The notes under the pieces were generated by a model. The model was not told the origin of the DNA. It made no database searches and saw only the letters and a list, made by a program, of their open reading frames with translations. Made by a program: the position numbers and the translations under genes. A DNA stretch of 64,000 bases from Nymphaea colorata. Taxonomy: Eukaryota > Streptophyta > Magnoliopsida > Nymphaeales > Nymphaeaceae. Shown here piece by piece: positions 27,207 to 64,000 of this stretch (the first letter of the stretch is position 1; each line of letters begins with the position of its first letter). The stretch is taken from assembly GCF_008831285.2 (NCBI RefSeq), contig NC_045139.1:28809206-28873205 (forward strand), in the 5' to 3' direction.

Positions 27207-30200
27207 ATGGAAGTCATGGTTCGTGGCTCAACTCCTTTGAGCTCCTCGGACGCCGTGGCGAACATCTACTCTAGATATTGCGGTAAAAGCACCGTCCTAT
27301 TCATCCCTCTTTGTTTTCTTTAATTTTTTCCACTTAGTTATTGGATTTTATTATTTTTTCCCGGATTGGTTTTCTTTTAGATTCATTTTTGCGTTCTCTA
27401 GATTTCTAGTTCCATATTTGTTTGTAGATCTTCAATGGTGCCTGGTCCGCTAGTTATGGTGAGTTAATGGTCTGCTTAACACTGAAATTGATGATATCTT
27501 AGTGAGCTTTAAGTTGATCGAAACCTTATGCTCGTCTGTTGCTAATAAAAAGGTAAATGACGATATGAGGTTCTTTGGTGAGTGATTTGCATGTGGATTG
27601 ATGCAATTCCTTCCGAATGAACCCCTTTTTTGGAACCCCGTAGTTCTTGATGAGTTTTGTGTTGTTAAGATGACTCAAGTGCTAGCAAGTGTTCTTGTTT
27701 TTAATTGTAATCATAGCATTAACTCTGAGGTGATCCGCATGATTTAAAGGGGTTTTCTTATGACTATACCCGTTTGGCTTTTTCCTGTCAATATCGGTCT
27801 TTGTGACAATGTAGATGAATGTGAAAGATGGTCAAAAGGTGAGTTTGAAACCATGAATCTTTCCTTTATACGCAGCATAATCCATTTTCACTAAATAAAA
27901 GTAAAGGGTGCCAAAAATTTTCCTGCATTTAGTTCTCTAATGTATAATACCAACCATAATAAACCTAAAAATCGGCCATCATAATGTCAACTATGTCATA
28001 TAACCCTTGCATTTTGTTGTATTGGACTTTACCATTTGCTACTGAGTGTGGATGGTTGCAAGTAGTGTTGGGTTCCTGATGGGTCACGAACTACAAGGTA
28101 CAAAGTAGTGTGGCTGGGAGGTTGGGTATGTTATATGACGCACATGTTTGCTCTCCTCTCCCACCGGCACCTTGCCTTCCCCTCTTTTTCTCTGTGTGCA
28201 TGCATCTGTGTTTGCAGATGTCTATGTCTATCTGTATGCACTTGTATACCAGTGTGCACGTGCAAGCATGCACCTACACGTGTGTGTCTGTGTGTACTGA
28301 CACACACATCTGCTGTCCTCTCCCACCGCCACTCTGCCTTCCCTTCTTTTTACCTTGTGTGCATATGTGCACTGTGTTTGCGGGTGTCTATGTCTATCTG
28401 TATGCACATGTATATCAGTGTGCACCTTCACATGTGTGTGTCTGTGTGTACTGACACACATATCTGCTCTCCTCTCCCACCGCCACTCTGCCTTCCCTTC
28501 TTTTTACCCTGTGTGCATATGTGCATCTGTGTTTGCGGGTGTCTATGTTTATCTGTATGCACATGTATATCAGTGTGCACATGCAAGCATGCACCTTCAC
28601 ATGTGTGTGTCTGTGTGTACTGCTCCTAGGCATGCATGTATAACCTGTCTGCGAGCACCATATGCATCATGTTTGCAAGGCATGGATATAAGTAACTGAG
28701 ATTCTTGGATAATCAATTGATTTTCTGAATATATAGTCATTAGACGATAGTGTGGCATTTTACAGAGGGGAATGTGAGGTCAAGCACTTAAACGATCATG
28801 CCACAGGAAGATAATGCACCGTTTTGGCTGCATTCATTGTCACTAACGAGAAGCATTCCTGAATGAGGACTAAGGATCGATTGTCTAGATGCTGCTGGTT
28901 TCTTATTTAAATCCGTTGCCAGGAAGCATGACACATCTTAGTATCTTACGATTCTTATACAAGGGATGGTGTTCTTATTATCTCATGTCTGATGTGCCTG
29001 AATTTACATTCATATTAGGTTATGGAGGGCATATATAAATTAGTGGACTCCTTGAATCCAAAACACCTTAAATTCTTGCCAGTTCAGCATTGCATTAATA
29101 TAATATGTTGTTATTAACTTATTGTGAAGTTGAGGGGCCTTAAACTTCATTTGTCAGTGCTACATTCACCTTAAATAACTGTCTACTGTCTTTTGGACTC
29201 TTCGCCTGATGTTCCTGGACTTGTAGGATTGTTCTTTCTTCATTGTTGTTTCTTATTCTTCTATTATGGTAAGATTTTGGGAACATTTTCATCTGATTCC
29301 ACCAAATTTTGTTCTCTTGAAAGCATTGTGGTGCTTAATCTTGATATAGTTACATTAAAAGGGGGATGTATCTCTTACCTTTTCCTTTTTCTTCTAAAAC
29401 ATGGTTCAATTCAGATACGAGAAGAATAAATGATCCTGCAGAGTGCAAAGATGCTTTAGCATTGCTTTCAAAATGGGTGGAATCCAAAGGATTGACAAGG
29501 TATACATAATTTGATTTATGGATGGTTCATTTTCTTTTAACATTTTGATCCTTCAGATAATAATGCAAGAATAAGGCTTTCCATGTGCACACAAGATTAG
29601 CACAATGTGCTACATGCTTTTGGTTAACATGGTCACAGTTATGGATCACCAAAAGAAAATAGATACTCTTTGGATTTTGTCATTCAAATGCTAATCTCCA
29701 CTAAACTGGCCTTCATCGTGTATGTAGGAGTAAATTTAGGACAAATATGTTAAAGCTGATAAAAGTGCTTAAATGCAATTAGATTGCACATCCAAATGAA
29801 TATGCACACACACACACACACATATCATTGTCACAAATATCAACATATTTTTCTTCAAAATATAGTGTCTGAGAAGCAGCAAAATAAGGAAAATAAAAAG
29901 GAAAAGATCACATTACTGAAATATTGCTAAAACAAAAACATCCCTCATTTTTTGACAATTTTTTTTGTTTTTTTTAGAAAAGACATTTTAATGCAACTTA
30001 ATGTTTTGGGTTTATCTTAACATTTTAGTAACTATTTAATACTTTTGTCAATGCTTTCATAAGAAATTTAGTAGAAAATCGAAATTTGCATTTTTTCTAT
30101 TATTTTTATTTCTTTTCTGGTTTTCTGGATTCGCAAGATCTTCATGAGGAAAAAAAAATTCAGCTAGCATCCCATGGAAACCCCCAATTAGTGGCGGAGC

Positions 30201-39578: not shown

Positions 39579-40122
39579 TCAAGGTTTCTTGGCGGAACAT
39601 GGCTTTGGGCAATATGACAAGGGATCTCGGCATCTGCACTGCGGAGGGAAGGACCTGGTGCACAAGCACATTTTACACCCCGGGTAGCAGTGGTCCTTCA
39701 CATCTCCGCAGTGGCATAGTGGAGGAATCGACTTGGTGCAACCACAACCGGCATCGCAGCACGGCCGCCCAGCAGCATCAGAAACTGCACAACAGAAGAA
39801 CACAACCAACTTAGAAATGCAAGAAGAGAACCAGGTTAAGTGATCATGGCGAAAGACTGCGCGTCTCCATTCGCAGGGAAAAATAAAGCTTATTTCCAAA
39901 ATCACATTGCAAATGATTGTAGACTTGATAGTGCACATTGATTTATCGCTGCTAAGCTCACTCAGAAGCTGTAAAAATTAAACAGGGGTTACAGAGCCGC
40001 CATACACCTTCATCATCAGTCACGGTTGGCAGGATCGGCTTATCCACTGCGGCATCAAGCCTAAGGACCGAAATAGCCAGAACAGTGGCCATTAATGCAA
40101 CCAGAACACTCGTTCCCCTCAT
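39579..40122 (-). CDS. Bowman-Birk type serine protease inhibitor, copy 1
   Basis: There are two exons: 40008-40122 (signal peptide and propeptide, 38 codons plus one base) and 39579-39784 (inhibitor). They are joined across a 223-bp phase-1 intron (donor GAAG|GTGTAT, acceptor TGTGCAG|TTTC) to give 106 residues. The first 24 or so residues are a secretory signal ending LRLDA. The mature part has the 14 cysteines of a double-headed BBI, with two nine-residue inhibitory loops: CTKSIPPLC (P1 Lys) and CTRSFPPQC (P1 Arg). Both heads should block trypsin-like proteases, and the product should be secreted or vacuolar. An in-frame upstream ATG at 40146 exists, but the start at MRG is preferred because the paralogue has a stop codon just before it. 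This copy is clearly diverged from the two copies further right. Confidence 0.92.
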
Positions 40123-42165: not shown

Positions 42166-42841
42166 TTTTATTTTTCTTTCTTGACTACCCTTAGTCATAG
42201 ACGGTAGTCTTAGCCATTTTGTTTCGTTTGGGTTATTTTAATTCAATGGTATTTAAGCATTGGTTCTATCAACTAGTCCTTCCAAAACCTTATTGACCTG
42301 TTGCCTTCCATCTTTGGTTTTTCTAAAACTGAGCTTGATTTGTTATTGGCCTCCAATTATAGTTCCTTTGTTGATTTTCTCAACACATTCAAACACTTGT
42401 TTGTTGATTAAGAAATTAGTTCAATGCTAAACTTTGCATCTAATCATTCCAGTCTCCCCTATTTTGCTTAGAGTGGATATCATATTGAGCATAACATAGC
42501 TGGTTGGACAGACAGCATCTAGAAGGCACACCATGCCACCTATTCAATTCCCATAGATCCTATTTTTTTGGACCACAAAAGTAAAGTTGCGATACTCAAG
42601 CTGAAAGGTGAATGGGAGAGCTTCGAGCCTCACTCCAATGAGTGGGGTAACCTCCCATTCGCTGGAATGTCATATAGTGTAGATCAGTCAGTATTAGCAT
42701 GATCTATCTCTTCTGCATGGTGAACAATTAATTGTAGACTTGAGAGTGCACGTCGATTTATCTCTTTTGCCCGCACTCACACTCGGAAAGAAATTATACA
42801 AATTAAACATGCGAGCACACACAGAGCAGCCATATATGCAC

Positions 42842-42883
42842 CTTCATCATCAGGAGTGATCGAAAGGCGCGGCTCGTCCACTA
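42842..42883 (-). pseudogene. BBI pseudogene, 3' part of exon 1 (left of the insertion)
   Basis: The minus strand encodes the propeptide end (DEPRLSITPDDE) and keeps the donor site GAAG|GTGCAT, as in the intact copies. About 110 bp of BBI-like intron follows (42730-42841). Homology then stops and the inhibitor exon is missing. The 5' half of this exon lies 3.5 kb away at 46418-46486, across a transposon. Confidence 0.75.
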
Positions 42884-46417: not shown

Positions 46418-46486
46418 TAAGGCTGAAGACCGAGACAACAAGAAAGTGGCCATTAAGGCAACCATAATAGTACTCATTCCCCTTAT
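46418..46486 (-). pseudogene. BBI pseudogene, 5' part of exon 1 (right of the insertion)
   Basis: This aligns to the signal-peptide exon of BBI copy 2 (49430-49547). The start codon is ATA instead of ATG, and one base is missing in the stretch matching the hydrophobic core, so the frame is lost. A few bases between the two halves of the exon are also missing relative to the intact copies. The TATA region upstream is preserved. With the inhibitor exon absent on the other side, this locus cannot make a BBI. Confidence 0.78.
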
Positions 46487-46543
46487 CTTGGCCTAACACA
46501 CTGTTCACACTTACTTCCCTGACGCATACATATGAAGGAAGGG

Positions 46544-46553
46544 TTATTTATAG
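46544..46553 (-). promoter_or_regulatory. TATA box of the BBI pseudogene
   Basis: The minus strand reads CTATAAATAA in the same context as the intact genes (GACTCAGGAGTTGTG further upstream). The upstream region 46500-46720 is close to that of BBI copy 2, so the promoter outlived the gene. Confidence 0.5.
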
Positions 46554-47113
46554 ACTCAGGACTCAGGAGTTGTGCCTTCTCACATGCATGCTTACTTACA
46601 AGCACAAGCCCATCCAAGTTGCTTTCGGTCATTTACTGGAAGGCTGCAGCATTGAGAACGTGTTAGATAAAAGAACTTTTACTTTTTCACATTTTTAGTT
46701 TTTGCTCGATAGGCTAGAGACGTTGACAATAAGGCATGCTGTCATCTGCTTCAATTTGAAGCTAGACTGTCATCTGCTTCAATTTAATGACTCATCTAGT
46801 CAGACCCATCGTCGGTATAGTACATAAGATATACAAGCTTATTTTTTCTACGTAAAAGTTTTTGGTCACTTTTTCGAAAAGTTAATTTTACACATGACAA
46901 AACATGAATAATCAGTCAGGTTGACTAAATAACTTATAATCATTCTACATAGTTTCAATATTTACTGAGTTCAGATATAAATGAATTGGTTAAACTGGTC
47001 TTACTTTGTGACTGGTTTTTCCAACCCCTATTTTTTTTTCCTCACTCACTAGCTCACTTTCTTCTCTTTTCATTTTCATTTCATGTTTCACAAGCATCAT
47101 GGTGTGTGTGTGT

Positions 47114-47157: not shown

Positions 47158-47362
47158 GACTTTGATTATCCAGAACCACTCAGCTGAGGGCCAACTGGTC
47201 CATCACAATGAACGGTTAAGAAAAAAAAATAATGATGCCGCAGATGACGCGGATGTTCGATGCTCTCTGCAGGTTGGAGACAAGGAGGCGAAGGGTAGCG
47301 TGAAGCTGGTGCGTGATAATCACATTCACGAGGACATCAACGCGAATGTGTCAATGGAATAA
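47156..47362 (+). other. Short open frame whose last 39 codons are shared by both duplicated units
   Basis: The frame runs 68 codons and ends GDKEAKGSVKLVRDN...ANVSME. In unit B the same frame (from the DAD/DIR codons at the copia junction to a stop near 61602) is also open and ends ANVSIE. About eight amino-acid changes and only one clear silent change separate them, so there is no sign of strong protein constraint. I do not recognise the family. It may be the tail of an old gene. Confidence 0.3.
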
Positions 47363-49450
47363 GTTAAAAGAAGACAGAGCAATGGTTCCTTCTAATTCGT
47401 CCTTTCTTTCTCGTGCCTTTCAATTTGTACCCACATGAAACTCAATCGACAAAGAGCCTGAATAATCCATTCCTGCGCATTGAATATCTGGCTTCATTGT
47501 TTTTCCCTCGGAAGCCTAATGTCCACACGCCCAAAGCATCAAGTCTGATCTCTTATTAGGGATAAGGATCGGCCGGCCTACCGTCATGGCCGCAATATCT
47601 TGTCCGCATTCCTGTGGTAAGCAATTATTTTGGAGGAGAGCAGGGTAGGCGGAGACTCATGGCTAGCTGATTTATAGTGTGCTTGACACTTTCTGGGCTG
47701 CCTAGCTGTAAGATATCATGTCTGACAGTGTATGTACAATGAAATATCTTGAGAGACAAAGTGCCGGGAGAGGAAAGTTAGATGCCAGCCTATATTGCAT
47801 CACACATGCACCGCTCAGCGCACACAATACACAGTACACCAAAAAAAAAAAGAGACATTTTTGAAATTATTGAAAAAGAATGTCCTTTTGAATCTTTTCA
47901 CTCTTTTCAATTTTCTTTTTTATTTTTATAAAAAGTTTTTTTTATCTGTTAAATGAAAGTATTCTCATGATGACCACACACAGGCGTACGAAAATTGCAT
48001 GCATATAATTACCAGCTTCGGAATAAGGATAGGAAACACCATTCAGCTTGGTCACACAGGTAAGTATCTAGAGCTTGGTATTCACTGCCTCTCAAAATGT
48101 TTTATTTTTCTTTAAAAAGTACTTTCAACTTTAGCCTGAAATTCACAGAACGCATCTGATTTTGTAAGCTATCATATACATCCAAGTATACCGAGAGAAC
48201 ACGTGCACAAAAATAATATAATAACAGTTATCAATCAAAGCTAATAGCACGCACATGGCCACAAATCAGAATAAATTAAATCCAATGGATGAGAAAAGTT
48301 CGCTTGTGAAGTGTAAAAAAAAACCGGTTTTTGGTTTTTACCCTGCTGACAGGCCACGCACACACTCTATTCACACGCAAGTCTACGAGAAAAAGGTAAA
48401 TCAAATCGTCTAGTTATCTGCTTGATGACCAAACTGCTGATGCACTGCTCGACCGGTACATGGACTTCCTTGTCAGTGTGGCCTATTATTCACGGAAAGA
48501 ATTGCTTCTTGATCTTGGGGTGTGAAAGGTAGAAAGATCTTGGGGAGCAACAATACTAATTAGAGGACCACATCTGAAAATGATGATTTACTAGCTGAAG
48601 TATTCTAGCATCATCATATAAAAATGGGTGAATCTTGAATTAGTTTCCAGATGGATGATTTTTGTCCGTCGTTCACAACTCAAAATCCTCTGCTTATGGC
48701 ATCCATATATAACAAAATTCGATCCTCCATTTACCAAGTCAACAAGGAAGATAGAGCCGTAATGTGCCTTCTTTAGTTCAGAAATTTGTTCTGCTAAGGG
48801 ATTCAAGTGCAGGGATGAATCGGAAACAACAAAGGCAACCATGCATAGAAACCAAGGTCCAGTCTTATTTGAATATATATCAAACTGACGGTGCACAGCT
48901 AAGTGCTGAACATAGTAGCGTCAGTCGAAGATTAGGGAGTACTATAGGTCCTTGGTTTTGATCCACGTAGTCTTGGCTTCAGAATTTCTTTTCGGAGCAG
49001 GGCTTTGGGCAGAAGGGCAAGACATCTGTGCATTGGCACTGCGGAGGAATGGACTTGGTGCATATGCAGCCTCTGCACCCCGGATAACAGTGGTCCTTAA
49101 CATCTAGGCAATGGCATTGTGGAGGAATCGACTTGGTGCAAGGACAAAGCGAGTCGCAGCATGGCTTCCAACGAGCATCTAAAACTGCACAACAGGAGAA
49201 AGAACAACACAACGGACTCAGAAATGCAAGAACAAATGGAACTTAGTTGAGTAATCATGACGAAAACCAACTCTCTTGTCACAGGAAAAGACAAAAGTTT
49301 CTTTCCAAAAAACCGCATGGTAAACGATTAATTGTAGACTCGAGAGTGGACGTCGATTTATCTCTGCACTCAAGTCGCTCAGAAATTATACAAATTAAAC
49401 ATGCGAGCACACGGAGAGCAGCCGTGCACCTTCATCCTCAGCGATGATTG
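47230..49450. repeat. Duplicated segment, unit A (contains BBI copy 2)
   Basis: This aligns along its length to 56170-56198 plus 61492-64000: the GATGCCGC...CGCGGAT start, the open segment ending VSME, the GGATCGGCCGGCCTACCGTC block (47566 and 61836), the AGCTGTAAGATATCATGTCTG block, and the BBI 3' flank and gene. Unit B differs by the copia insertion (56199-61491), a 24-bp duplication at 61591, an insertion near 62127-62460, and loss of part of the 48190-48480 stretch. Confidence 0.8.
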
Positions 49451-49547
49451 AAAGGAGCGGCTTGTCCACTGCTGCATCAAGCCTGAGGACCGAGACAGCA
49501 AGAAGGATAGCCATGAAGGCAACCAGAACAGTACTCACTCCCCTCAT
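48979..49547 (-). CDS. Bowman-Birk type serine protease inhibitor, copy 2
   Basis: There are two exons: 49430-49547 (signal peptide, 39 codons plus one base) and 48979-49184 (inhibitor). A 245-bp phase-1 intron separates them (donor GAAG|GTGCAC, acceptor TGTGCAG|TTTT), giving 107 residues. The 14-cysteine framework is complete. Both inhibitory loops are identical, CTKSIPPQC with P1 Lys, predicting a symmetric trypsin/trypsin inhibitor. The secretory signal ends around LRLDA. An in-frame stop just upstream of the ATG fixes the start. Second-head sequence and flanks are almost identical to copy 3 at the right edge, because both lie in a duplicated segment. Expression in defence or wounding is typical of the family but cannot be read from the sequence. 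Confidence 0.92.
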
Positions 49548-49614: not shown

Positions 49615-50098
49615 ACTGAGGACTCAGGAGTTGTGCCTTCTCACATGCATGCTTGCAAGCACCATCCCATCCAACTTGTTTCGGTAATTGACTGGAAGGC
49701 TGTACCATTGAGAACGTGTTGGATAAAAGAACTTGTACGCTTTCACATTTTGTATCTTTGCTCGACCGCTAAGGCAAGATGTCCTCTTCTTCAATTGGAG
49801 GATATTCTCTGCCATTGCAAATCCAATTATGTGGCCTACAAGCACAGGCCTCTTCTTATCGATTTTTCCTCTCCTGTATAGGTAAGTCTTAAACTACATC
49901 CACAAACGACGCTTTAAAGCCTTGAGTGGGTTTTCTCAGAGCCTCTGACGTTTAAGTTTCCCCTCAACGCACAATGAACATGTTGTTTGCTGCTTCTCCG
50001 TCATATGAGAGAGAGGAAAAAAAGAAGAGGAGGGTTTGTTACTCGCCTGCCAATGGTTTTTAGAATATGCATTCTACCTAAATATGAATGATGACTCA

Positions 50099-50382
50099 TG
50101 TGAATTAATGTTCTTAGGAGGGATGACACGTTGGAGAGGAACAAGAAAGGAATTTTATCAATGGAACGAGGTTATTTCTTTATTGAAAATCAAGACCATA
50201 TATACAATAGCTTCACAACGGTAACGAGCTAGCTCTCCTTCATTCACGTAACAAAGTTTTCTAAAATACATTTGATATCTGAGGCAAGTTGAGGTGGAGA
50301 GCCTTGACATGAACGTTGAGATGGACGTTGAGATGAGGTGAACGTTGTAAAGTGTGAACGTTGTAAAGCTTTTCTTTTAACA
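50099..50382 (-). repeat. 3' LTR of the older copia element
   Basis: Plus-strand ends are TGTGAATTAATG and TTTTAACA. It contains a repeated GAACGTTGTAAAG motif near one end. It pairs with 54830-55112. Confidence 0.93.
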
Positions 50383-50394
50383 CTCCCCCTTCAA
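50383..50394 (-). other. Polypurine tract, older copia element
   Basis: The minus strand reads GAAGGGGGAG immediately before the 3' LTR, the plus-strand priming site of the element. Confidence 0.75.
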
Positions 50395-53300
50395 ACATGT
50401 GTGTAAAGATTGACGACACTAAGTTTGAACAATAGATGATAAAAACCTTCTTTTCCTAATGCTTTAGTAAATAAGTCTGTCAGCTGGTCTTTGCTTCGAA
50501 TATAGCATGTGCGTATTGTCCCCTGAAACAATTTTTCTCGTACGATGTGACAATCTAGTTCAATATGTTTCGTACGTTCATGAAAAACTGGGTTTACAGC
50601 TATATGTAATACTGCTTGATTGTCACAGAAAATCATTACTGGATGTAGTTGGCTTACTCCAAACTCGTTCAATAGATATCTTAACCATGTTATTTCACAT
50701 ATCACATTAGCCATGGATCTATATTCAGCTTCAGCAAAGGATAGTGATACTGTTTGTTGTGTCTTTGACTTCCAAGATATGGGAACTGGGCCAAGAAACA
50801 CACAATAGCCAGTGACAGATCATCGCGCGTTTGATGGCAGGTAGCCCAATCTGAATCACAAAAGGCACTTAACTGCAAACTATTCTCTTTACTCATTAGG
50901 ATGCCTTGGCATGGATTTTTCTTGAGATACCGAATCACTCGAAATGCTGCTTGTAGGTGGGGTATTCGTGGTTGTTGCATGAACCTGCTTAGGACGTGTA
51001 CGGCATATTGTATATCTGGGCATGTAATGCTGAGATAGATTAATCTCCCAACAAGTCGGCCATATTGTGTTGAATCCTTGATGTAGTCTCCATGATGTTC
51101 GTCCAACCCATGTTTTTGTTCCATTGTCGTTTCTGTTGGTTTTGCTCTCAAAAGACCTGTTTCATGAATAATATCTAGAGCATATTTTTGTTGTGAGAGA
51201 TATATTCCCTTTGAAGAACGGACAATTTCAATTCCCAAAAAATACTTAGGTTTGCCTAAGTCTTTCATGTGGAACTTTCTACATAGAAATGATTTGAAGT
51301 TATCAATTGCATCCTTCACATTTCCTGCAATTGTCAAGTCATCAACGTATACAAGAATGGCAAGAAAAATTTTATCACGCTTGAGTGTGAAAAGGGAGTG
51401 ATCAGCTTTAGATTGCATAAATCATACCCTTCTAGAGCAGTTGAAAGCTTGTGAAACCAATTTCTTGGATATTGTTTTAAGCCATAAAGAGATTTATGTA
51501 ATTTACATACCTGATTCTCCTCCTGTTTGACATACCCTTGATGTATTTTCAGATAGACTTCTTCATGCAAGTCGTCATGTAGGAAAGCATTATTGACGTC
51601 CATTTGGCACATGATCCAATCTTGATTAGCTGCTATAGTAAAAAGAGTATGTACCATGACCATTTTGGCAACCGGAGCGAAAGTTTCATTATAGTCCAAT
51701 CCCTCTTGTTGAGCATATCATTTGGCCACCAGCCTAGCCTTGTAACACTCTATGGATCCATCTGATTTTAGTTTAATCTTATAAACTCATTTGCACCCGA
51801 TTGGTTTCACTCCGTTTGGAAGTGTAGTAATAGTCCAAGTCTTGTTTTCTTGTAAGGCACGAATCTCACTATCCATGGCGTCTCTTCATTCCTTATGTTG
51901 AGTTGCTTCTTCAAAGGTTTGTGGCTCAGACTTGGAAACAAAAGATGTGAGAAATGCAAAATGATTACTAGAGAAACGATGAAAAGAAATAAATTTTCTT
52001 ATAGAATACCTCGTTCCTTGTTGATAACCTGATTTGGATATGTCGTTGGTTGAGGGTGAGGTAAGAAGCGAACATTGGAAATCTTTTAACCATACTGTTG
52101 GTTTTCTTACACGGGTAGATCTCTTAGATACTAAAGATGGATTTGGATATGAATCTGGATCAACCGAAGATAGGTTTGGTTCATTTAAAGATGGATCTAG
52201 ATCTGGATCAAATGATGATAGGTTTGGTTCATTGGTTTCTAGATCAATGTGTTCTACATTAAGGGGGCTAGAAATGGATGTGTCATTCCTTATAGCCTGT
52301 GTAGGATAGATGTCTAGATCATAAGGAATGGGTAAAGCGATACATCTTTCACCAATTTTTTTATTTTGAAAGGAAAAATATTTTCATGAAAGATTACATC
52401 GCGACTAACAAACACTTTGTTTGTCTCAAGATCATAAAGTTTATAAGCTTTTTGCCCTTCAGGGTACCCAATGAAAATGCACTTAATCGCTCTAGAATCA
52501 AATTTGGTTTTGTTTTGGAAAGTATTTGTGGCATAACATAAGGATAAAAAAACTCTAAAATGTTTGATGTTTGGTTTCTTGCCAAATAATATTTCAAAGG
52601 GAGATTTTTCATTTAGTTTTGAAGATGGTATGCGATTAATTAGATAGGTGGCTGTCAAAACACATTCACCCTAAAAATGCAAAGGTAAGTTAGTTTCAAA
52701 ACGTAAGGCCCTTGCAACTTCAAGAAAATGGCGGTGTTTATGTTCCACTACGCCATTTTGTTGAGGAGTAGCCACACAACTATGTTGATGAGTGGTACCT
52801 TGTTTTTGTAAAAAATCTTTCATTTCATATGAAAAAAATTCAGTCCCATTATCCGTTCGCAAAGATTTAATTTGACAATTAAACTGTGTTTTAATCAAAG
52901 CAAAAAAAAATTTGATAAGATGCAAGGTTTCATATTTATGCCTCATTAACAAAATTCAAGTGGCACAAGAGTAATCATCTACAATGCTAAGAAAATAATG
53001 TGAACCGGAAATAGTGGATTGAGCATACGGGCCCCAAATATCACAATGAATTAAATCAAAAGGTTGCGTCGTAGATATTTCACTCAAACCAAACTTAAGT
53101 CGAGTTTGTTTTGCTCGATGACAAGCATCACAAACATAGTCATCATTCACATCAAAGTTTAAATCTAAATAATTGTTCACTATCTTTAAGCGAGAATGTG
53201 AAACGTGACCTAATCTTTTATGCCAAAGTTCATGAGTAGAAACGGCAAGACAAGCTTGAACAAATGGTGGTCTTTGTTGGAGAACGTACAGTCCACCTTT

Positions 53301-54816
53301 CACCTCACCCTGCCCAATCGTCATCTTCGATTCCAGGTCCAGTGTAATACAATGATCAGGTAGGAAAGTTATGGAACAATTTAAATTTTTAGTTAATTCA
53401 CTAACTGAAAGTAAATTAACGTTAAAAGATAAAATGCATAATACATCATTCGCTTCAAACAAAGGCAATGATAGTTTACCCGCCTGATGAACTGGAATTG
53501 TTTTTCCATTTGGTAATGTCACAGGAACATTGCATGATTTTAAACTTTGGAGCATATTTTCGTCAGCACATATATGGCGACTCGCTCCCAAATCAATAAT
53601 CCAAGTACGAGATTGAGTATTAATAGAACAAACATTACCTCCATGAACTACGTTACCTGCAAAGTTGATATTGGTCTGTTGGTTTTTTTACCAAGGATAG
53701 CAATTTGTGATATTCTTCAAGTGTAAATGCTGGAGCAGAACCTTTAGTATCTAGTCCTCCACAACCTAGACTCCCAACACCATCAAAGGAAGTCAGTTTA
53801 ACATAAAGTGCATAGTTTCTTTGAGACACATTAGCTGCAATTGGCGATTTAAAATTAGGATCATACAAGTGATGTCTTGGAGCGTACCCAATGAGTTTGA
53901 AGCACTTTTCTTTAATGTGTCCAATTCCTCGACAGTGGCTACAAACAGGCCGATTTTGGCGTCCTCCTTTGTTTCTATGAAATCCTCCATAGTCAACATC
54001 GTGACTGGTTTGTTTAACATGCTCACTTTGCTTGACCGCCAAGGCTGCAGTCCCTCCACTAGCTGAACCAGAACACCGTGCCTCACGCTGTTTTTCTTCT
54101 TGGAGGACCATCGCATAAACTTTGTTGACATTGAGAAGGGGATCAAGAAGTAAAATCTGGCCTCTAACAACATTATAAGAATCATTGAGACCCATTTAGA
54201 ATTGGATAGCACGTTCCCTTTGGATTTGTTCCGAATACGACTTCATGGCCCCACAAAAGCACATGGGAATAAGAGAATATGAACTAAGCTCGTCCCAAAG
54301 AGCCTTTAATTTGGTAAAATATAATGCAACAGTCATAGTATCCTGTTGTAGACGACTAATAGCACTCTGGATTTGATAGATCCGAGGAGCGAGACTTTGA
54401 GTAAATCGTTCTCGCAAATCTTCCCAACCTCTCTAACATTAATCGAATAAATAACACTCTCTACAATGTCTTTGTTGACTGAATTCAAGATCCAAGAAAG
54501 TATCATATTGGTGGACCGAACCCATAGATGATAGCTTGGATCATCCTTTTTTGGTTTCTTGATAGAACCATCAATGAAACCAATTTTGTTTTTTTACTCA
54601 AAGAGCCATCAACATGGCTCTACTCCACATCCCATAATTTTTCCCATTAAAATGTTGCGAAACCAAGACATTTCCAGGGTTGTCTGAATGGTGAATAAAG
54701 AAAGGGTTAGACATCACCTGGGATAGATATGCGCCATTGGGATCAACATAAACGACATCATCTGCCTTTCGTCTATCGCTATTCTCATCAACTCCACGGT
54801 CTGCCATTGCCCTCAT
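50391..54816 (-). pseudogene. Decayed copia gag-pol of the older element
   Basis: Fragments in order on the minus strand are: gag N-terminus (54598-54816, with HFNGKNYGMWSRAM), gag middle (54196-54417), gag end with CCHC knuckle (53653-54195, CSHCRGIGHIKEKC), protease and GAG-pre-integrase (52956-53591), integrase (52671-52952, with TDNGTEF and TPQQNGVVE), integrase end (52314-52658), RT (51334-51699, QMDVNNAFLHDDL; then YVDD in 50702-51418) and RNase H (50391-50801). The protease motif is DLG where the family has DSG. At least five frame breaks and several stops separate the pieces, with a T-run at 54589 a probable slippage site. It cannot encode its own transposition. Confidence 0.92.
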
Positions 54817-54817
54817 T

Positions 54818-54829
54818 GCTCTGATACCA
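54818..54829 (-). other. Primer-binding site, older copia element
   Basis: The minus strand reads TGGTATCAGAGC directly after the 5' LTR. This is the standard plant copia site complementary to the initiator methionine tRNA 3' end. Confidence 0.9.
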
Positions 54830-55112
54830 TGTGAATTAATTTTCTTATGAGGGATGACACGTTGAAGAGGAACAAGAAAGGAATTTTATCAATGCAAAGA
54901 GGTTATTTCTTTATTGAAAATCAAGACCATATATACAATAGCTTCACAACGGTAAGGAGCGAGCTCCCCTTCATTCACTTAACAAAGTTTTCTAAAATAC
55001 ATTGGATATTTGAGGCAAGTTGAGGTGGAGAGCCTTGACATGAACGTTGAGATGGACGTTGAGATGAGGTGAACGTTGTAAAGCGTGAACGTTGTAAAGC
55101 TTTCCTTTAACA
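54830..55112 (-). repeat. 5' LTR of the older copia element
   Basis: It pairs with 50099-50382. On the minus strand this is the promoter LTR, lying just upstream of the primer-binding site and gag. Confidence 0.93.
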
Positions 55113-55117
55113 ACTCA

Positions 55118-56169
55118 AGGATCACACATTTCATCCATGAAGGTTGTTCGATACATTGTAATGAATTGTTGAGAGAAAAACAAAGAGAAAAAAGTGATTG
55201 ACATTTTTGTTATATAATATTAACTAACATATTTTTCTCTGGTTTTTTCTCAATCATCTACCACACCACAATGAGTCTGAGTCATAAAAAAAAAAATCAA
55301 ATTGATCTAACATCTATTAAGGTATTAACGAGCAATGAACATCATTAAAAAAATGTGAAAGCAAAAACTAAAATTTTTTTACGTCATTCAGAGAAAAGCC
55401 CCTTGCGTCCACGCCCAAAGCACAATCGATTTCTTATGTTTTTGAAATAAAATACAAGAATGGATCGTGTTTTACATGTCTAGAAAAAGAAAGCCTAATG
55501 GAAATAGCTTCCGTACATGGCTTAAATAAAATTGGATCTTCGACAACCCATGGGACATGAAGCGGCCGGCTCCATCCTCCGCTTCCTTCCACGAGAAACA
55601 TCTTCCATCAAGCCCCTGATTTTACACGACATCTTCTTACTAGAATATACCTACCGAACAATTCCTGCGTTAACATATATTTTTTTCCCGGTCGACATCT
55701 GTGCATATGTATATTTTACATTATCTATAATTCTTTCCCCCTTAACATCTACATTTGTTTTACATCTTTCTATAATCCTTTCGCGGTCAACGTCTGCATT
55801 TATTTATTTGGCAGGCATATGACAGGGTTCACCTTTGGAACCATTCGTAGCACATACTACCACGTTTATATACCCGTATATGAATGATTGAGACGTAGGA
55901 GATGAACCACACGACCCAATTACCTACTTTAATTTGGAATCTAAATGAATTGATCAATACATCCAATTAGTGAAACGATTTCAAATTGGACCCAATAAAG
56001 AGATTCCGCCGCAGATTTGATATGCAGTTCCACAATTAAATCGAAATCTGAAATGAGTAGCCAATAAAAGTATAATGACATTGCATATGAATGCGAATAT
56101 GAATCTAGATAGTGAAAAAAAATTTGAAAGGAATAATGGGGAGCAGGAATGACTTTGGGACGCTAATTA
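55118..56169. other. Spacer between the two copia elements
   Basis: It holds one MITE-like element and otherwise no supported feature. Homology to unit A starts only near 56170, so the left duplication breakpoint lies there. Confidence 0.5.
55166..55254. repeat. Short inverted-repeat (MITE-like) element, copy 3
   Basis: It starts TTGTTGAGAGAAAAACAAAG, shares GTGATTGACATTTT with copy 1, and ends TTTTTTCTCAAT. It lies just outside the older copia element. Confidence 0.5.
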
Positions 56170-56198: not shown

Positions 56199-56745
56199 TG
56201 TTAAGAGTCAGCACCGACTCAAGAATCATCACCGACTCTCACGAAGCATCTTAAACCTCCTCTTTTATGTCGGTGCATGTAATGATTACATGAAATAAAA
56301 AATAAAAAAATATAGAAAGTGGTGGATTCTTCCACCACCGACTAAGTAATCCCTATAAATAGGGGATGAGGGCCATGTTGAGGTGTACGTGTGAAAAAAG
56401 AGTGAGTGTGTGTGAAAAAATTGTGAGTGTGGTTGAGTCATTTATGTGCTCACTTTGTGAGCGTGTGAGGTGTGTGAGCTTGTGAGGTGTGTCAGAGTTG
56501 TGCTCAGTGCAAGAGCGTCGGGTTTGGAGGTATTTAGGTGTGGAAGTTCACTACGTGAGCGAGGTGAGTTTTTCTTGAGCCTCCTTGTAATGTTTATTTT
56601 GATGAATGAATAGTTGATATTTTAAAGTATACTCTTTCAAAGTTATTATTGAGTATCATTTTGGACGTCGAGACTCTGCTAGATTTTCTCTGCATAAATT
56701 TGAGTTTGTAGCTGAGTTATAGGGCCCGCATTACGTTTTCCAACA
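56199..56745 (+). repeat. 5' LTR of the young copia element
   Basis: It begins TGTTAAGAGTCAGCACCGAC and ends TTTTCCAACA. It contains a likely promoter (CCTATAAATAGGGGATGAG near 56352-56370) followed by a G+T-rich leader with GTGAG repeats. Confidence 0.95.
56354..56361 (+). promoter_or_regulatory. TATA box in the copia 5' LTR
   Basis: TATAAATA lies about 390 bp before the LTR end, in a context (CTATAAATAGGGG) typical of LTR promoters. The same site is in the 3' LTR near 61102, which could drive transcription into the BBI unit B flank. Confidence 0.6.
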
Positions 56746-56747
56746 AT

Positions 56748-56760
56748 TGGTATCAGGGCC
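56748..56760 (+). other. Primer-binding site, young copia element
   Basis: TGGTATCAGGGCC lies two bases after the LTR, complementary to initiator methionine tRNA. Confidence 0.9.
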
Positions 56761-56808
56761 AGGTTCTGTCCGAAGGCCGATTTATTGGAATAGATATATC
56801 CTGAAGTT

Positions 56809-59019
56809 ATGGCGGCATTAGCGGTTGCATTAAACAATATTGAGAAACTTAACAATAGCAATTATGGCTATTTGAAATCATGTATGGAGTCGTATTTTCT
56901 AGGACAGGAATTATGGGAGATAGTATTGGGATCAGACACTAATATTCCTGTCGACGAGGAAGCGAAGAAGAAATGGATGATCAAAGCAGGAAAAGCTTTA
57001 TTTGCAATTAAGGTATCAATCGAGAAAGATTTATTAGAGCATATACGAGATGCTACGACTCCTAAAGAAGCATGGGATGCTTTTGCAACCTTATTTTCAC
57101 GAGCTAATGATGCCCGCCTACAATTATTAGAAAATGATTTAGCTACATTAACTCAGGGAAGCATGTCGATAGCAGAATATTTTATGAAGGTTAAAAATAT
57201 TTGTAGAGAGATATCTCAAATCGACCCTGAGTCTAAAATCAGTGAGGCCCGTATGCGGAGAATACTTATTCACGGACTTCGTCCAGAATTTGGCAGTTTC
57301 ATAATTGGTGTTCAAGGCTGGCCAGTTCAACCAACTTTGTTGGAGTTAGAAAATCTCTTGATCAATCAAGAAACATTAGCGAAACAAATGGTCGGGCTTT
57401 CTCTCAAGGGAAATAATGAGGAAGCTTTGTTTAGTAAGGGTCAGAGATCACGATGGCCAGCTAAGCCAGTCATTAGGTCTCCAAGTAGGAACATTGATGA
57501 CAAGAAAGAGAAAAATGTACAAAAGAAAACAAGAGAAACTACACAGCAGTGGAGACCAAAGGTAAAATGTTTTAGATGTGGGAAATTGGGTCATATTGCT
57601 CGTGACTGCAGAGTGAGAATAAATGAAGGAAATGCAGTCATGATAAGTAAGCAAGATGGGGGAGCTAATGAGACTGTACAGAAAAGTTCATTTTTGTACT
57701 CAATGGAGGTTAAAGAGGATGTTAAACAAGAAAGATGCAATTCCGCCCATATAAAACCTCCAAAAGAAAAAGAAGAGAAGATCAATTATCAAACTGATTG
57801 GATAATTGATTCTGGATGCTCAAATCATATGACTGGTGATGAAAACAAGTTTGTAAGTCTGAAAGAATATGATGGAAATCGAGTTGTTGTTACTGCTAAC
57901 AACACAAAGCTCCCAGTGGCACATATTGGAGAAGCAGAGATTATAGCCAACTTCGGTAAAGACCGGATTTTACGGAACGTTTACCATGTTCCAGGAATGA
58001 CAAAGAATTTGTTGTCTGTGCCACAACTTACAGCTTTAGGGCACTATGTTGTGTTCGGCCCAAATGATGTAAAAGTTTATAAGGATGCAGATGTTCAAGG
58101 AACTCCCATGTTTGAAGGAAGGAAAGTTGAGTCAATATATGTCTTGTCAGCAGAAACAGCATATATTGACAAAGCAAAGAAGCATGACACTGCAGATATC
58201 TGGCATGAGAGACTCGCTCATGTTAGATACAACAAACTTCAGGAGATGTCTAATAAGGGGCAGTTGATTGGCCTGCCCAAGTTTGAGGTACAAACTGACA
58301 AAGTATGCCCAGGATGTCAGTATGGAAAGGCGCACAGGAGGCCATACAAAGAATCAAAATATAGAGCTAAAGCGCCATTCGAACTTGTGCATTCAGACGT
58401 ATTCGGCAAAGTACCAGACCCATCAGTTGGAGGTAAGTGGTATTTTATCACTTTTATTGATGACTTTTCAAGATATACTTGGGTCTATTTTATGAAAGAA
58501 AAGTCTGAAGCACTTGAAAAGTTTAAGGAGTTTCACCAAATGGTGCAAAAAGAACTTGGGCATAGAATTCGGTGTCTACAAACCGATAATGGTGGCGAAT
58601 ATACATCCAACATGTTTATGACATACTTGAGACAACATGGCATTCGAAGACAATTCACATGTGCCTATACGCCACAGCAAAATGGAGTGGCAGAAAGGAA
58701 AAATCGCCACATAGCAGAAACATGTCGAAGCATGATGCATGCAAAGAACATGCCACCAAGATTTTGGGCCGAGTGTGTCAGTACCGCTGTACACGTAATC
58801 AATCGATTACCAATGCCGAGATTTAATTTTAAATCTCCATATGAAATGCTCCATAAAAAGAAGCCATCTGTGACTTATTTTAGAGTATTTGGTTGTGTAT
58901 GTTATGTTTTTATATCTGAGCAGCACAGGACTAAGTTCGACAAAAAGGCACAGAAGTGTGTCTTTGTCGGATATGACCCATATCGGAAAGGATGGAGATG
59001 TGCTAATCCTAGCACATGA
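56809..59019 (+). CDS. Copia gag-protease-integrase (first part of polyprotein)
   Basis: This is 736 residues from the ATG after the primer-binding site. Gag comes first, with the Asn/Tyr-rich NNSNYGYLKSCM region and a CCHC knuckle at C254, C257, H262 and C267. The aspartic protease motif DSG is at 334-336. The GAG-pre-integrase segment with WHERLAH is at 465-471. The integrase core has the D530, D593, E629 triad with 35 residues between the last two. The frame then meets TGA at 59017-59019 where the integrase C-terminal region continues in relatives. Downstream DNA stays open in the same frame, so this is a point stop and not a true end. All catalytic residues named are present. Confidence 0.93.
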   Translation: MAALAVALNNIEKLNNSNYGYLKSCMESYFLGQELWEIVLGSDTNIPVDEEAKKKWMIKAGKALFAIKVSIEKDLLEHIRDATTPKEAWDAFATLFSRANDARLQLLENDLATLTQGSMSIAEYFMKVKNICREISQIDPESKISEARMRRILIHGLRPEFGSFIIGVQGWPVQPTLLELENLLINQETLAKQMVGLSLKGNNEEALFSKGQRSRWPAKPVIRSPSRNIDDKKEKNVQKKTRETTQQWRPKVKCFRCGKLGHIARDCRVRINEGNAVMISKQDGGANETVQKSSFLYSMEVKEDVKQERCNSAHIKPPKEKEEKINYQTDWIIDSGCSNHMTGDENKFVSLKEYDGNRVVVTANNTKLPVAHIGEAEIIANFGKDRILRNVYHVPGMTKNLLSVPQLTALGHYVVFGPNDVKVYKDADVQGTPMFEGRKVESIYVLSAETAYIDKAKKHDTADIWHERLAHVRYNKLQEMSNKGQLIGLPKFEVQTDKVCPGCQYGKAHRRPYKESKYRAKAPFELVHSDVFGKVPDPSVGGKWYFITFIDDFSRYTWVYFMKEKSEALEKFKEFHQMVQKELGHRIRCLQTDNGGEYTSNMFMTYLRQHGIRRQFTCAYTPQQNGVAERKNRHIAETCRSMMHAKNMPPRFWAECVSTAVHVINRLPMPRFNFKSPYEMLHKKKPSVTYFRVFGCVCYVFISEQHRTKFDKKAQKCVFVGYDPYRKGWRCANPST

Positions 59020-61002
59020 CAAGTTTATATTTCTCGCGACGTCATCTTCGATGAAGCATCATCGTGGTGGTCAGAAGAAAAGAAGACGCTTCCAGACTCT
59101 CCAGTTCTTGGAAGAGACGTTCAACACAAAATACAATTTGAGATTAATCAAGGAGAGCCTGAGCTTGAAGACACAGAAGCAAGACAACCAGATAAAGAAA
59201 TTCATTGCACAAGGCAAGAAGAACGTACAGATCCATGGAGAACAGGAGTCAGTCATATCCAACAAAGAACTGCAGAAGAAGAAAGACCATCACAATTTGA
59301 AGAGCCAGAAGGAGCAACGATAGCTCTAAGAAGATCAACGAGAATACCAAAACCAAATCCAAAATATGTAGATGCAGACTGTGCCATCATGGAGGAGATC
59401 GAGCCAGCTTCTTTTGAAGAAGCAAAAGATGTTGAAAAGTGGCAATCAGCAATGAAAGATGAAATGAAGTCACTAGAACATAACGAAACTTGGGAGCTCG
59501 TTCCAAAGCCTAGAGGAGTAAAGCCTATTACTTGTAAGTGGGTTTACAAAATAAAAAGAAAGACAGATGGCTCAGTTGATAGATACAAGGCTCGACTAGT
59601 TGCGAGAGGATTTTCTCAACAATATAAAATTGACTTTGAAGAAACTTTTAGTCCTGTTGCGAAAATCACATCCGTACGTGTTCTGATAGCCATTGCTGCA
59701 AGCAAATCCTGGACGCTATGGCAAATGGATGTGAAAAATGCATTCTTATATGGAGATCTCGACCATGAAATCTGTATGGAGCAACCTGAAGGATTCAAAT
59801 TTCCAAACAAGCCAGACTACGTTTGCAAGTTAAGAAAAGCACTCTATGGACTGAAACAAGCACCAAGAGCATGGTACGGGAAAATAGCTGAATTTTTGGT
59901 ATTTAGTGGATTTCAAGTCTCCTCAGCAGATTCAAGTCTCTTCGTCAAGGTAAGAGGTACGAAACTTACCATGTTGTTAATTTATGTTGATGATCTAATT
60001 ATCACTGGAGATGACAATGAAGAAATTAATCTCATTCGTGAACATCTCACGGTGAGATTTGAAATGAAAGAGCTGAGGGAGTTGCGACACTTCCTTGGAT
60101 TGGAAATTGATTACGAAACTCAAGGATTATTTTTAAGTCAAAAGAAATATGCTCATGACTTACTACGTAAGTATGGTATGCTCAGTTGCAAACCTATCCC
60201 AACACCAATTGAGATAAATGCAAAACTTAGAGTTGATGAAGGAGACAGGCTGGATGATGTTACTATGTATCGACAACTGGTTGGAAGCCTAATCTACTTA
60301 ACATTAACAAGACCAGACATTGCCTATGCAGTTGGTGTTGTGAGCAGATTTATGCAAACTCCAAGGAAACCACATTTAGAAGCACTAAAAAGAATATTAA
60401 GGTATATCAAAGGAACTCTTGACTTTGGTATACTTTATGAAAGAGGGACAACTTGTCAAGTTGTTAGTCATTGTGACGCGGACTATGCAGGAGACTTATC
60501 AACACGAAGATCAACCACTGGATATACATTCAGTCTTGGAAGTGGTGCGATTTCATGGTGTAGTAAGAGACAGCCAACAGTTTCACTATCTACAACCGAA
60601 ACAGAGTATAGAGCAGCTTCTCAAGCAGCACAAGAATGTGTGTGGTTGATGCGACTGCTGAAAGACATTAAACAAAACGTGGATTATGCAGTGAGGCTCT
60701 ACTGCGATAATCAAAGTGCAGTCAGACTTGCAGAGAATCCTGTCTTTCATGCTCGAACGAAACATATAGAGGTGGAACATCACTTTATTAGAGAGAAGGT
60801 ACTCAAAGGGAAGATTCAGTTGCAGCCAATCGCTTCAGAAGATCAAGTCGCTGACATCTTTACCAAGGGCTTACCAGTACAGACGTTCGTGAAACTTCGA
60901 AGAATGTTGGGAATCATAAGTAAAGAGTCGGTAATGAGGGGGAGATTGTTAAGAGTCAGCACCGACTCAAGAATCATCACCGACTCTCACGAAGCATCTT
61001 AA
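59020..61002 (+). CDS. Copia reverse transcriptase-RNase H (second part of polyprotein)
   Basis: This continues the same frame as 56809-59019, directly after the TGA; the first ATG after it is at 59389. Reverse transcriptase shows CKWVYKIK, the [13 protein letters not shown] block and the catalytic YVDD (about residue 1059 of the joint frame). RNase H shows [10 protein letters not shown], the TETEYRA block, YCDNQSA and the [13 protein letters not shown] end. It stops at 61000-61002 inside the 3' LTR. Without readthrough of the TGA, the reverse transcriptase would not be made from this copy, but the element could still move with proteins from intact relatives. Confidence 0.93.
60935..60946 (+). 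other. Polypurine tract, young copia element
   Basis: GAGGGGGAGAT directly precedes the 3' LTR. Confidence 0.85.
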
Positions 61003-61491
61003 ACCTCCTCTTTTATGTCGGTGCATGTAATGATTACATGAAATAAAAAATAAAAAAAATATAAAAAGTGGTGGATTCTTCCACCACCGACTAAGTAATC
61101 CCTATAAATAGGGGATGAGGGCCATGTTGAGGTGTACGTGTGAAAAAAGAGTGAGTGTGTGTGAAAAAATTGTGAGTGTGGTTGAGTCATTTATGTCACT
61201 TTGTGAGCGTGTGAGGTGTGTGAGCTTGTGAGGTGTGTCAGAGTTGTGCTCAGTGCAAGAGCGTCGGGTTTGGAGGTATTTAGGTGTGGAAGTTCACTAC
61301 GTGAGCGAGGTGAGTTTTTCTTGAGCCTCCTTGTAATGTTTATTTTGATGAATGAATAGTTGATATTTTAAAGTATACTCTTTCAAAGTTATTATTGAGT
61401 ATCATTTTGGACGTCGAGACTCTGCTAGATTTTCTCCGCATAAATTTGAGTTTGTAGCTGAGTTATAGGGCCCGCATTACGTTTTCCAACA
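60947..61491 (+). repeat. 3' LTR of the young copia element
   Basis: It is nearly identical to the 5' LTR. Differences seen are one extra A and one G/A change in the A-rich stretch near 61055, a 3-bp deletion near 61194, and one T/C change near 61437. The gag-pol frame runs 56 bases into it. Confidence 0.95.
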
Positions 61492-61590
61492 GATATTCGA
61501 TGCCTTCTGCCGGTTGGAGACAAGAAGGGGAAGGGTAGAGTGAAGTTGGTGCGTGATAATCACATTCACGAGGACATCGACGCGAATGTG

Positions 61591-61637
61591 TCAATTGAAT
61601 AAGTTAAAAGATGTCAATTGAATAAGTTAAAAGATGA
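61591..61637 (+). repeat. Short tandem duplication unique to unit B
   Basis: GTCAATTGAATAAGTTAAAA plus GAT is present twice in a row; unit A has one copy at about 47350. It arose after the segmental duplication or was lost from unit A. Confidence 0.85.
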
Positions 61638-62126
61638 CAGAGCAATGGTCCCTTCTAATTCGTCCTTTCTTTCTCGTGCCTTTCAATTTGTAGCCATATG
61701 AAACTCAATCGACAAAGAGCCTGAATAATCCATCCCTCCGTATTGAATATCTCGCTTCCTTGTTTTTAACTCGAAAGGCTAAACGTGCACATGCCAAAAG
61801 CATCAAGACTGAGTGATCTCTTATAGCGATAAGGATCGGCCGGCCTACCGTCATGGCGGCAATATCTTGTCCGCATTCCTGCGGTAAGCAATTATTTTGG
61901 AGGATATTATTGCCAATTTCCTTTGGGGAGAGTCACTCGCAGGCTGTGCATAAATCCAATTTCACAACTTTATAGTTGCTAGTGGAGGAGAGCAGGGTAG
62001 GGGGGACTAAGGGCTAGCTGATTGATAGTGTGCTTGACACTTTTTGGACTGCTTAGCTGTAAGATATCATGTCTGGGAGTGTATGTATAATGAAATATCT
62101 TGAAAGACAAAGTGCCGGGAGAGGAA

Positions 62127-62460
62127 AATTTTTAAACTGGCATTCCCTCTACGCTACGGAAGGAGATTAAGGGAGTTAACATTGTTCTTTTGTCGTAAGC
62201 TAGCCAAGTGTGGAGATCTAGACAAGTTTTGGAAAGATACTTGGGGAGCGAATATTATGCACTCATATTTCTATGGAGATCTTAATTAGTTGAAGTCAAG
62301 GTGGACATGAAATTGACTATTATGTATGGATGTAGTTAAGTAGAGTCGAGCTCGGCTCCACTTGTTTCTTGCTCGGCTCAAGCTTAAGTCGAGCTTGACA
62401 AGGTCAGATCGAGCTCGATTCAGATAGGCTAGACTGTGTTGAGCTCGAGTTCAACTTGTT
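62127..62460. mobile_element. Insertion unique to unit B, with GAGCTCG-rich end
   Basis: Unit A reads continuously from GAGGAAAG to AGATGCCAGCC at about 47772, whereas unit B has about 330 extra bases. The right part (62345-62455) is rich in GTCGAGCTCGGCTC-type motifs, a composition seen in interspersed plant repeats. TTTAAA lies at both junctions and may be the target duplication. No reading frame is supported. Its family is unknown to me. Confidence 0.45.
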
Positions 62461-63522
62461 TAAAGATGCCAACCTATATTTCATCACACATCCGCCGCTC
62501 AGTACATGCAATACACATACACCAAAAGAAAAAAGGAAACATTTTTGAAATTATTGAAAAAGAGTGTCTTCTGAATCTTTTCACTTTTTTTAATTTTCTT
62601 ATTTTTTGTCTTTATAAAAGTTATTTTTCTGTTAAATATAGGTGTTTTCATCATGGCCACACTGGCGTAAGAAAATTGCATGCGTACGTAATAACCAGTG
62701 GTCACACAGGTAAGCATCGAGAGCTTGGTATTCACGGCCTCTCAAATTTTTTTTTTTTCATTAAAAAATACTTTCAACTTTAGCCTTAAATTCCAAGAAC
62801 GCATCTGATTTTGTAAGCTATCATATACATCCAAGTATACCGAGATAAAAGATTCTTAGCAGCAATGGGCGCATGAAGAATGTCTTTAAGAACTGGAGTA
62901 TTAGAAATGTGAATGGGCAATAGACGGACCTGATCCTACAGTCTTCCGGCCCGATAAGGAGTATGAATACTTTAAATCTTTAATGGTACCTTAGGTATTG
63001 GTTCCATCACGGACACATATTTGAATCCAAATGCAAAGTTATTACTTCTAAAGACCTTCCTTCTTGACCTATTATTCACGGAAAGAATTGCTTCTTGATC
63101 TTGGGAGCAGCAATACTAATTAAAGGACCACATCTGAAAATGATGATTTACTAGATGAAGTATTCTAGCATCATCATATAAAAATGGGTGAATCTTGATT
63201 TAGTTTCCAGATGGATGACTTTTGTTCGTCGTTCACAAAATGGCATCCATATATAACAAAATTCGATCCTCCATTTACCAAGTCAACAAGGAAGATAGAG
63301 CCGTAATGTGCCTTGTTTAGTTCAGAAATTTGTTCTGCTAAGGGATTCAAGTGCAGGGATGAATCGGAAACAACAAAGGCAACCATGCATAGAAACCAAG
63401 GTCCAGTCTTATTTGAATATATATCAAACTGACGGTGCACAGCTAAGTGCTAAACATAGTACCGTCAGTCGAAGATTAGGGAGTACTATAGGTCCTTGGT
63501 TTTGATCCACGTAGTCTTGGCT

Positions 63523-64000
63523 TCAGAGTTTCTTTTCGGAGCAGGGCTTTGGGCAGAAGTGCAAGACATCTGTGCATTGGCACTGCGGAGGAATGGACTT
63601 GGTGCATATGCAGCCTTTGCACCCCGGATAACAGTGGTCCTTAATATCTAAGCAATGGCAATCTGGAATACGCGCCCTGGTGCAAACACAACCCGAGTCG
63701 CAGCATGGCTTCCAACGAGCATCTACAGCTGCACAACAGGAGAAAGAACAACACAACGGACTCAGAAATGCAAGAACAGATGGAACTTAGTTGAGTAATC
63801 ATGAGGAAAACCAACTCTCGTCACAGGGAAAGACAAAGTTTCTTTCCAAAAAACCGCATGGTAAACGATTAATTGTAGACTTGAGAGTGCACGTCGATTT
63901 ATCTCTGCTGCCCGCACTCACACATGCGCTCAGAAATTATACAAATTAAACATGCGAGCACACGGAGAGCAGCCGTGCACCTTCATCCTCAGCGATGATT
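63523..64000 (-). CDS. Bowman-Birk type serine protease inhibitor, copy 3 (cut by the window edge)
   Basis: Exon 2 is 63523-63728 (acceptor TGTGCAG|CTGT). The last 20 bases of exon 1 are 63981-64000 (donor GAAG|GTGCAC at 63981/63980); the signal peptide and start lie beyond the window. The 14 cysteines are all present. The second loop is the standard CTKSIPPQC (P1 Lys). The first loop is CTRARIPDC: P1 is Arg, but P1' is Ala instead of the near-universal Ser, and the usual first proline of the PP pair (P3') is Ile. The loop is still nine residues with correct cysteines, so it may inhibit a different protease or have lost activity. Almost all coding differences from copy 2 sit in and just before this loop. 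Confidence 0.88.

Follow-up and report, generated by a model that had tools for sequence, protein, structure and literature searches.

Clustered divergence over the first reactive loop of a duplicated double-headed BBI gene

Introduction

How do two neighboring BBI genes that resemble each other over most of their length come to differ so sharply in a single reactive loop, and what kind of process put the differences there? The question arises at 63625-63728 on the minus strand of the window (the whole 64-kb stretch of DNA analyzed here), an interval singled out in a sequence-only reading, which runs from the first base of BBI copy 3 exon 2 to just beyond the first head of the encoded inhibitor. 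An excerpt of PMC7760496 gives the canonical BBI loop motif as C-T-P1-S-x-P-P-x-C and a rule that assigns loops with Lys at P1 to the trypsin type. Hypervariability of reactive loops is already known, and the copy 3 loop is a fresh instance of it rather than an unprecedented one: the part of PMC3966226 cited here notes that hypervariability of inhibitor reactive centers has been described since the 1980s and ascribes it to selection with conversion.

Cluster layout and family membership

A BBI gene cluster lies on the minus strand within the final 25 kb of the window, comprising copy 1, a broken copy, copy 2, and copy 3 (Table 1). Two parts of the broken fourth copy lie ∼3.5 kb apart with other sequence between them, and no match to its exon 2 was found within the window. 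For copy 3, only 20 bases of exon 1 fall inside the window, and the gene was checked from exon 2 and the intron. Its exon 2 is an open frame with a splice acceptor, a stop codon, and all 14 cysteines. A promoter and terminator scan returned 0 of each under a sigma-70 model, which does not apply to a plant gene.

TABLE 1 Coordinates of the BBI genes and of the divergent tract in the window
Feature	Position	Strand	Details
Exon 2 of BBI copy 3 (mature two-headed inhibitor, 14 cysteines)	63523..63728	-	Stop at 63523-63525; 35.9 bits to PF00228
Intron of copy 3	63729..63980	-	GT...AG kept
End of exon 1 of copy 3 (last 20 bases)	63981..64000	-	Remainder beyond the window
Hyper-divergent tract of copy 3	63645..63693	-	14/17 in-frame differences from copy 2
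Divergent first reactive loop of copy 3 (codons 15-22, T-R-A-R-I-P-D-C)	63658..63681	-	
Exon 2 of BBI copy 2 (both loops CTKSIPPQC)	48979..49184	-	50.0 bits to PF00228
Exon 1 of copy 2 (open; hydrophobic, signal-like N terminus)	49430..49547	-	Judged by eye
Exon 2 of BBI copy 1 (loops CTKSIPPLC and CTRSFPPQC)	39579..39784	-	40.6 bits to PF00228; 5' end approximate
Broken fourth BBI copy (intron and remnant of the exon 1 end)	42715..42882	-	
Broken fourth BBI copy (upstream region and part of the exon 1 start)	46419..46694	-	Ile at the start codon position

In copies 1, 2, and 3 the 14 cysteines occupy identical positions, in the pattern of double-headed BBIs, and exon 2 of each scores above the curated cutoff of PF00228 (20.4 bits). 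The one stretch of copy 3 that passes is the second head (residues 35 to 57); the second head is the best Pfam stretch in copies 1 and 2 too, and copy 1 likewise has one passing stretch. Copies 1 and 3, the two that were searched, match plant BBIs of known structure. We compared 7 of the 21 distinct BBI sequences matched in the PDB, those with alignments, and set aside three Dickkopf matches; P1' Ser and P3' Pro were present in 14 of the 14 loops of these seven solved BBIs.

Copy 3 has in common with double-headed BBIs (PF00228; PDB 2r33 and 1mvz) the 14 cysteines, two loops, a canonical second head, and a significant sequence match, and it departs from them at P1' and P3' of the first loop, CTRARIPDC. 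The second head, CTKSIPPQC, fits the canonical motif. The first head fails it, with P1' Ser and P3' Pro replaced and P2 Thr and P4' Pro kept, and we therefore do not claim it as a canonical BBI head. The product of copy 3 is predicted to be a secreted inhibitor whose second head would be of the trypsin type by its Lys P1. All three copies read CCDxxCxCT, with one extra residue between cysteines 2 and 3 compared with the CCDxCxCT of the seven PDB BBIs.

Clustered divergence between copies 2 and 3

Copies 2 and 3 were compared in frame over 66 codons and the stop (63723 to 63523; 201 bases). They differ at 17 bases, 16 of which alter amino acids, the sole silent difference being in codon 25. Fourteen of the differences lie in a tract of 49 bp covering codons 11 to 27 (Table 1), and codons 28 to 66 hold three changes, all of which alter amino acids. 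Two further exon differences, at 63726 and 63728 within the five exon bases ahead of the counted codons, change two residues. When the 40 differences found over 888 aligned bases of copies 2 and 3 were redistributed, none of 20,000 shuffles matched the 13 differences of the densest 45-bp window (shuffle maximum, 10). The clustering described in the sequence-only reading therefore stands, at a count somewhat below its ∼15 differences in ∼45 bp. The tract is a real and statistically strong local feature.

The same reading had given the loop change accurately: CTKSIPPQC in copy 2 corresponds to CTRARIPDC in copy 3, with Lys to Arg at P1, Ser to Ala at P1', Ile to Arg at P2', and Pro to Ile at P3', to which Gln to Asp at P5' is added here. 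It was also right that all 14 cysteines are retained. Random placement of the 14 tract changes spared all four tract cysteines in 2.3% of 100,000 simulations. Sequencing error was considered as a source of the tract and judged unlikely because the frame and the cysteines are kept over 14 changes.

Elsewhere the two copies had been called nearly identical, which is roughly true of the 3' flank (63240-63522), where 3 of 283 bases differ, and of the intron, where 11 of 238 differ (8/225 once 63915-63935, where the alignment next to an indel is doubtful, is removed). The interval 63103-63239 shows 7 differences in 137 bases. The distal part of the duplicated block (61492-62130) has 43 differences in 526 bases. 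Gene-proximal divergence minus the tract (26/837) is lower than that of the distal block (P 6e-5), and exchange between the copies may therefore have kept the gene alike. A run-length test for exchange between copies 2 and 3 gave it no clear support: 873 of 20,000 shuffles equaled the longest identical run (136 bases) when the tract was included, and 4,758 of 20,000 did so without it.

Polarity of the changes

Changes were polarized with copy 1 alone as the outgroup. Outside codons 11 to 27, 36 of the 39 variable exon sites unite copies 2 and 3. Inside these codons there are 18 variable sites, of which 9 unite copies 1 and 2 and 4 unite copies 2 and 3; among the rest, 3 place the change on copy 2 and 2 are ambiguous. 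By this outgroup, the 14 tract changes divide into 9 on copy 3, 3 on copy 2, and 2 ambiguous. The amino acid changes on the copy 3 side are the five loop replacements given above (P1, P1', P2', P3', and P5') together with V27I. Eight of the copy 3-side base changes are packed into 17 bp (63661-63677), and the loop bases replaced in copy 3 are common to copies 1 and 2.

Copy 2 itself accounts for the two differences in codon 11 and for one of the two in codon 13, the other being ambiguous. The earlier assignment of the tract changes to copy 3 thus holds for most of them, fails at residue 11, and fails at least partly at residue 13. Residue 11 corresponds to P6 and codon 13 to P4; with copy 2 altered at the first and in one or more bases of the second, diversification around the contact surface seems to have affected both copies.

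At the family level the copy 3 loop is most likely the derived one, judging from the aligned loops, because Ser-x-Pro is carried by 14 of 14 loops of solved BBIs and by the second heads here. The reverse polarity would make the copy 3 loop the older one within the copy 2/3 pair, with copy 2 overwritten by a short conversion from copy 1. In its favor, copies 1 and 2 show 2 differences over the 33 bases of the first loop, against 49 over the 217 bases of the whole of exon 2. Copies 2 and 3 nevertheless agree against copy 1 at positions 30, 62, 69, 74, and 81, so that the converted stretch could be at most ∼30 bp, and the Ser-x-Pro of the solved BBIs and of the second heads likewise speaks against it. 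We regard reversed polarity as very improbable.

Rates of replacement and silent change

Replacement change in the tract amounts to 13 in 39.7 sites, compared with 15 in 561 for local silent change (Fisher P ~1e-9), a ratio of ∼12. The silent pool consists of the intron (11/238), the 3' flank at 63240-63522 (3/283), and silent exon sites (1/40), and leaves out 63103-63239; with that interval it becomes 22/698, and the ratio falls to ∼10. Replacement change is also concentrated within the exon, at 13 in 40 sites of the tract versus 3 in 118 elsewhere (P ~1e-6). The tract excess stands against the higher divergence of the distal block as well (P ~3e-5 at an assumed 9%). Over assumed backgrounds of 9 to 10%, P ranged from ~3e-5 to 9e-5, and against 20% it was 0.04.

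The replacement-to-silent ratio taken alone was not significant, either in the tract (13:1; binomial P 0.15) or in the exon (16:1; P 0.12). Positive selection, which the sequence-only reading had offered as an explanation, is therefore supported in part, by 13/40 replacement sites against 15/561 silent ones and not by the ratio within the tract. Relaxed constraint alone fails as an account of tract replacement change at ∼12 times the local silent level, and such an excess is more than drift or relaxed constraint could produce through single mutations. The authors of the passage cited in support of selection caution, in that excerpt, that drift could mimic the signal.

Origin of the divergent loop

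The reading to which we give the most weight, with confidence about evenly balanced, is that the first head of copy 3 diversified under selection after duplication while the second head was kept. Copy 3 is a close duplicate of copy 2 within a small cluster of two-headed BBI genes. On its branch, as polarized by copy 1, most of the first reactive loop (P1, P1', P2', P3', and P5') was rebuilt, and the frame, the 14 cysteines, P2 Thr, P4' Pro, the intron GT and AG, and the canonical second head were retained. With the second head still a Lys-P1 loop of the trypsin type, the first head would have been free to diverge, and selection may have driven it toward contact with other proteases, those of herbivores or microbes being the probable ones. 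Without the P3' Pro, ordinary tight canonical trypsin inhibition by this head would be doubtful. More speculatively, copies 2 and 3 might afterward have exchanged sequence around the gene, so that the remainder stayed similar and the loop stood out as an island.

Stepwise selection explains what changed, yet it requires numerous hits over a short time. Against it, and in keeping with a single complex event, stand the eight changes packed into 17 bp, the two-base changes in each of three codons, and the local silent divergence of ∼3%; the 14 clustered changes may represent fewer than 14 events. Three sequences from one window do not tell selection on point changes apart from a single compound event. 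The compound event, which we consider possible but doubtful, would have imported the loop in one step by conversion from a BBI paralogue outside the window or made it locally by complex mutation. A single event would fit the tight clustering, the codons changed at several bases, and the low divergence of the flanks. In the local version, one TCC unit of TCCTCC (Pro-Pro) would be lost and a CGT codon gained, turning CTKS-IPPQC into CTRARIP-DC with the loop length kept. The missing triplet sits in a tandem TCC repeat, and such a repeat is a usual site of slippage. When opening a gap cost 1.5, the gapped alignment reached 32.8 against 32.0 for the ungapped one, the latter winning from a cost of 2 up; at least four loop substitutions would be needed in addition to the indels. 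As for conversion, the Ohta review (PMC3966226) credits, in the part cited, conversion followed by selection for the hypervariability of inhibitor reactive centers. No donor, however, was found on either strand of the 64-kb window at up to 3 mismatches, nor by blastn: the pattern search and blastn (word size 7) returned only copy 3 itself, the homologous exons, and chance-level short matches. At positions 62, 69, 74, and 81, which lie within the tract or beside it, copy 3 also has the copy 2-type base, a pattern that favors an edited copy 2-type sequence over distant import. A diverged donor should moreover have brought more than the 1 silent change seen in ∼11 silent sites of the tract. The P value of that count is 0.03 at the whole-exon silent divergence of copy 1 and 0.42 at its tract-specific rate, and with the outcome hanging on the assumed rate, conversion may still have supplied the tract.

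Intragenic conversion from the second head was considered and rejected. Of its 33 bases, the first loop of copy 3 differs at 11 from the second head of the same copy and at 13 from the copy 1 second head, against 8 from the first loop of copy 2.

Decay offers a different account, in which the first head of copy 3 inhibits nothing and its changes are degenerative, constraint on it having been lifted because the second head is enough. Loss of P1' Ser and of P3' Pro, a residue held to be required, fits this account, as does the presence of an already broken fourth BBI copy in the cluster; within copy 3 the second head also gives the best Pfam stretch, though this is equally so in copies 1 and 2. 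Relaxation, however, raises the rate only up to the silent rate, and the tract lies ∼12-fold above it. The frame, cysteines, P2 Thr, and loop spacing of copy 3 are intact, and a multi-base mutation would be needed in addition. We think decay unlikely.

Function of the rebuilt head

The first head of copy 3 may be weak, retargeted, or re-registered, given its Arg P1 and the absence of the P3' Pro that is held to be required. A 2006 study by Daly et al. is said to describe an absolute structural requirement for the P3' proline in BBIs that is surmounted in the small SFTI-1 scaffold. Re-registration would follow if the loop had acquired a codon at its beginning and given up a Pro codon at its end, moving the register by one at the same length. 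As judged from the alignment, this indel reading is about as parsimonious as substitutions, and we hold the register shift itself to be a long shot. Aligned on the kept Ile-Pro, Ala17 would become P1 (with an elastase-like target), Arg18 would be P1', and Pro20 would supply the P3' cis-proline; the closing disulfide would then span P4 to P5' rather than P3 to P6'. If the shift is true, a canonical inhibitor would have been retargeted by sliding its loop and not by a P1 swap. Structure prediction from three-row alignments gave a mean pLDDT of 46 for both copy 3 and copy 2, presumably because the related sequences were so few.

Should the first head be active, it would be a naturally occurring BBI loop that functions despite lacking the P3' proline held to be required. 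Copies 2 and 3 are otherwise alike enough that they would then form a matched control pair, and the locus would offer a clean test of loop diversification by stepwise selection, conversion, or compensated indel. Should it be inactive, the locus would be an ordinary example of the loss of one head after duplication.

Relation to known inhibitors

Serpins and the other inhibitors with which the case can be compared have folds that differ from that of BBIs. They resemble copy 3 in joining a conserved framework to a hypervariable contact loop (Hill and Hastie 1987 and Ohta 1994, as cited in the portion of PMC3966226 used here). In Vigna BBI1 and BBI2, an excerpt of PMC12894363 reports the P1 residue of the first domain to be under positive selection, so that there, as for copy 3, selection is proposed on a contact residue of the first head. 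In the Vigna genes P1 varies between species, whereas here five of the seven inter-cysteine loop residues, P3' Pro included, differ between neighboring copies. The 57 wheat BBIs treated in PMC7995804 include variants at P1 and at P1' and, within the reactive motif, a deletion of two residues. According to the same paper, almost all monocot BBIs are single-headed, the only known exceptions being three double-headed BBIs in banana, which are of the same two-headed type as the copies described here.

The peptide CTRARIPDC was not found in the literature among the matches listed, and a paper containing the peptide alone may exist. An evolutionary study of maize wip1, a plant BBI gene, by Tiffin and Gaut in 2001 may offer a parallel with respect to selection.

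Neighboring elements

A young copia-type retrotransposon lies at 56199-61491, inside the duplicated block of copy 3, its type being assigned from open frames at 56794-59016 and 59020-60999. Its long terminal repeats (∼550 bp) differ by 3 mismatches and 2 gaps, and a GATAT repeat stands on either side; the copy 2 block has an unfilled counterpart of the insertion site near 47236-47260. An apparently older copia-type element occupies 50097-55127 on the minus strand, in pieces, between copies 2 and 3, and its terminal repeats are 93% alike across 300 bases. Farther from the cluster, the cysteine-rich open frames at 28066-28696 were judged by eye to be TG-rich low-complexity repeats read in several frames, and not an inhibitor gene.
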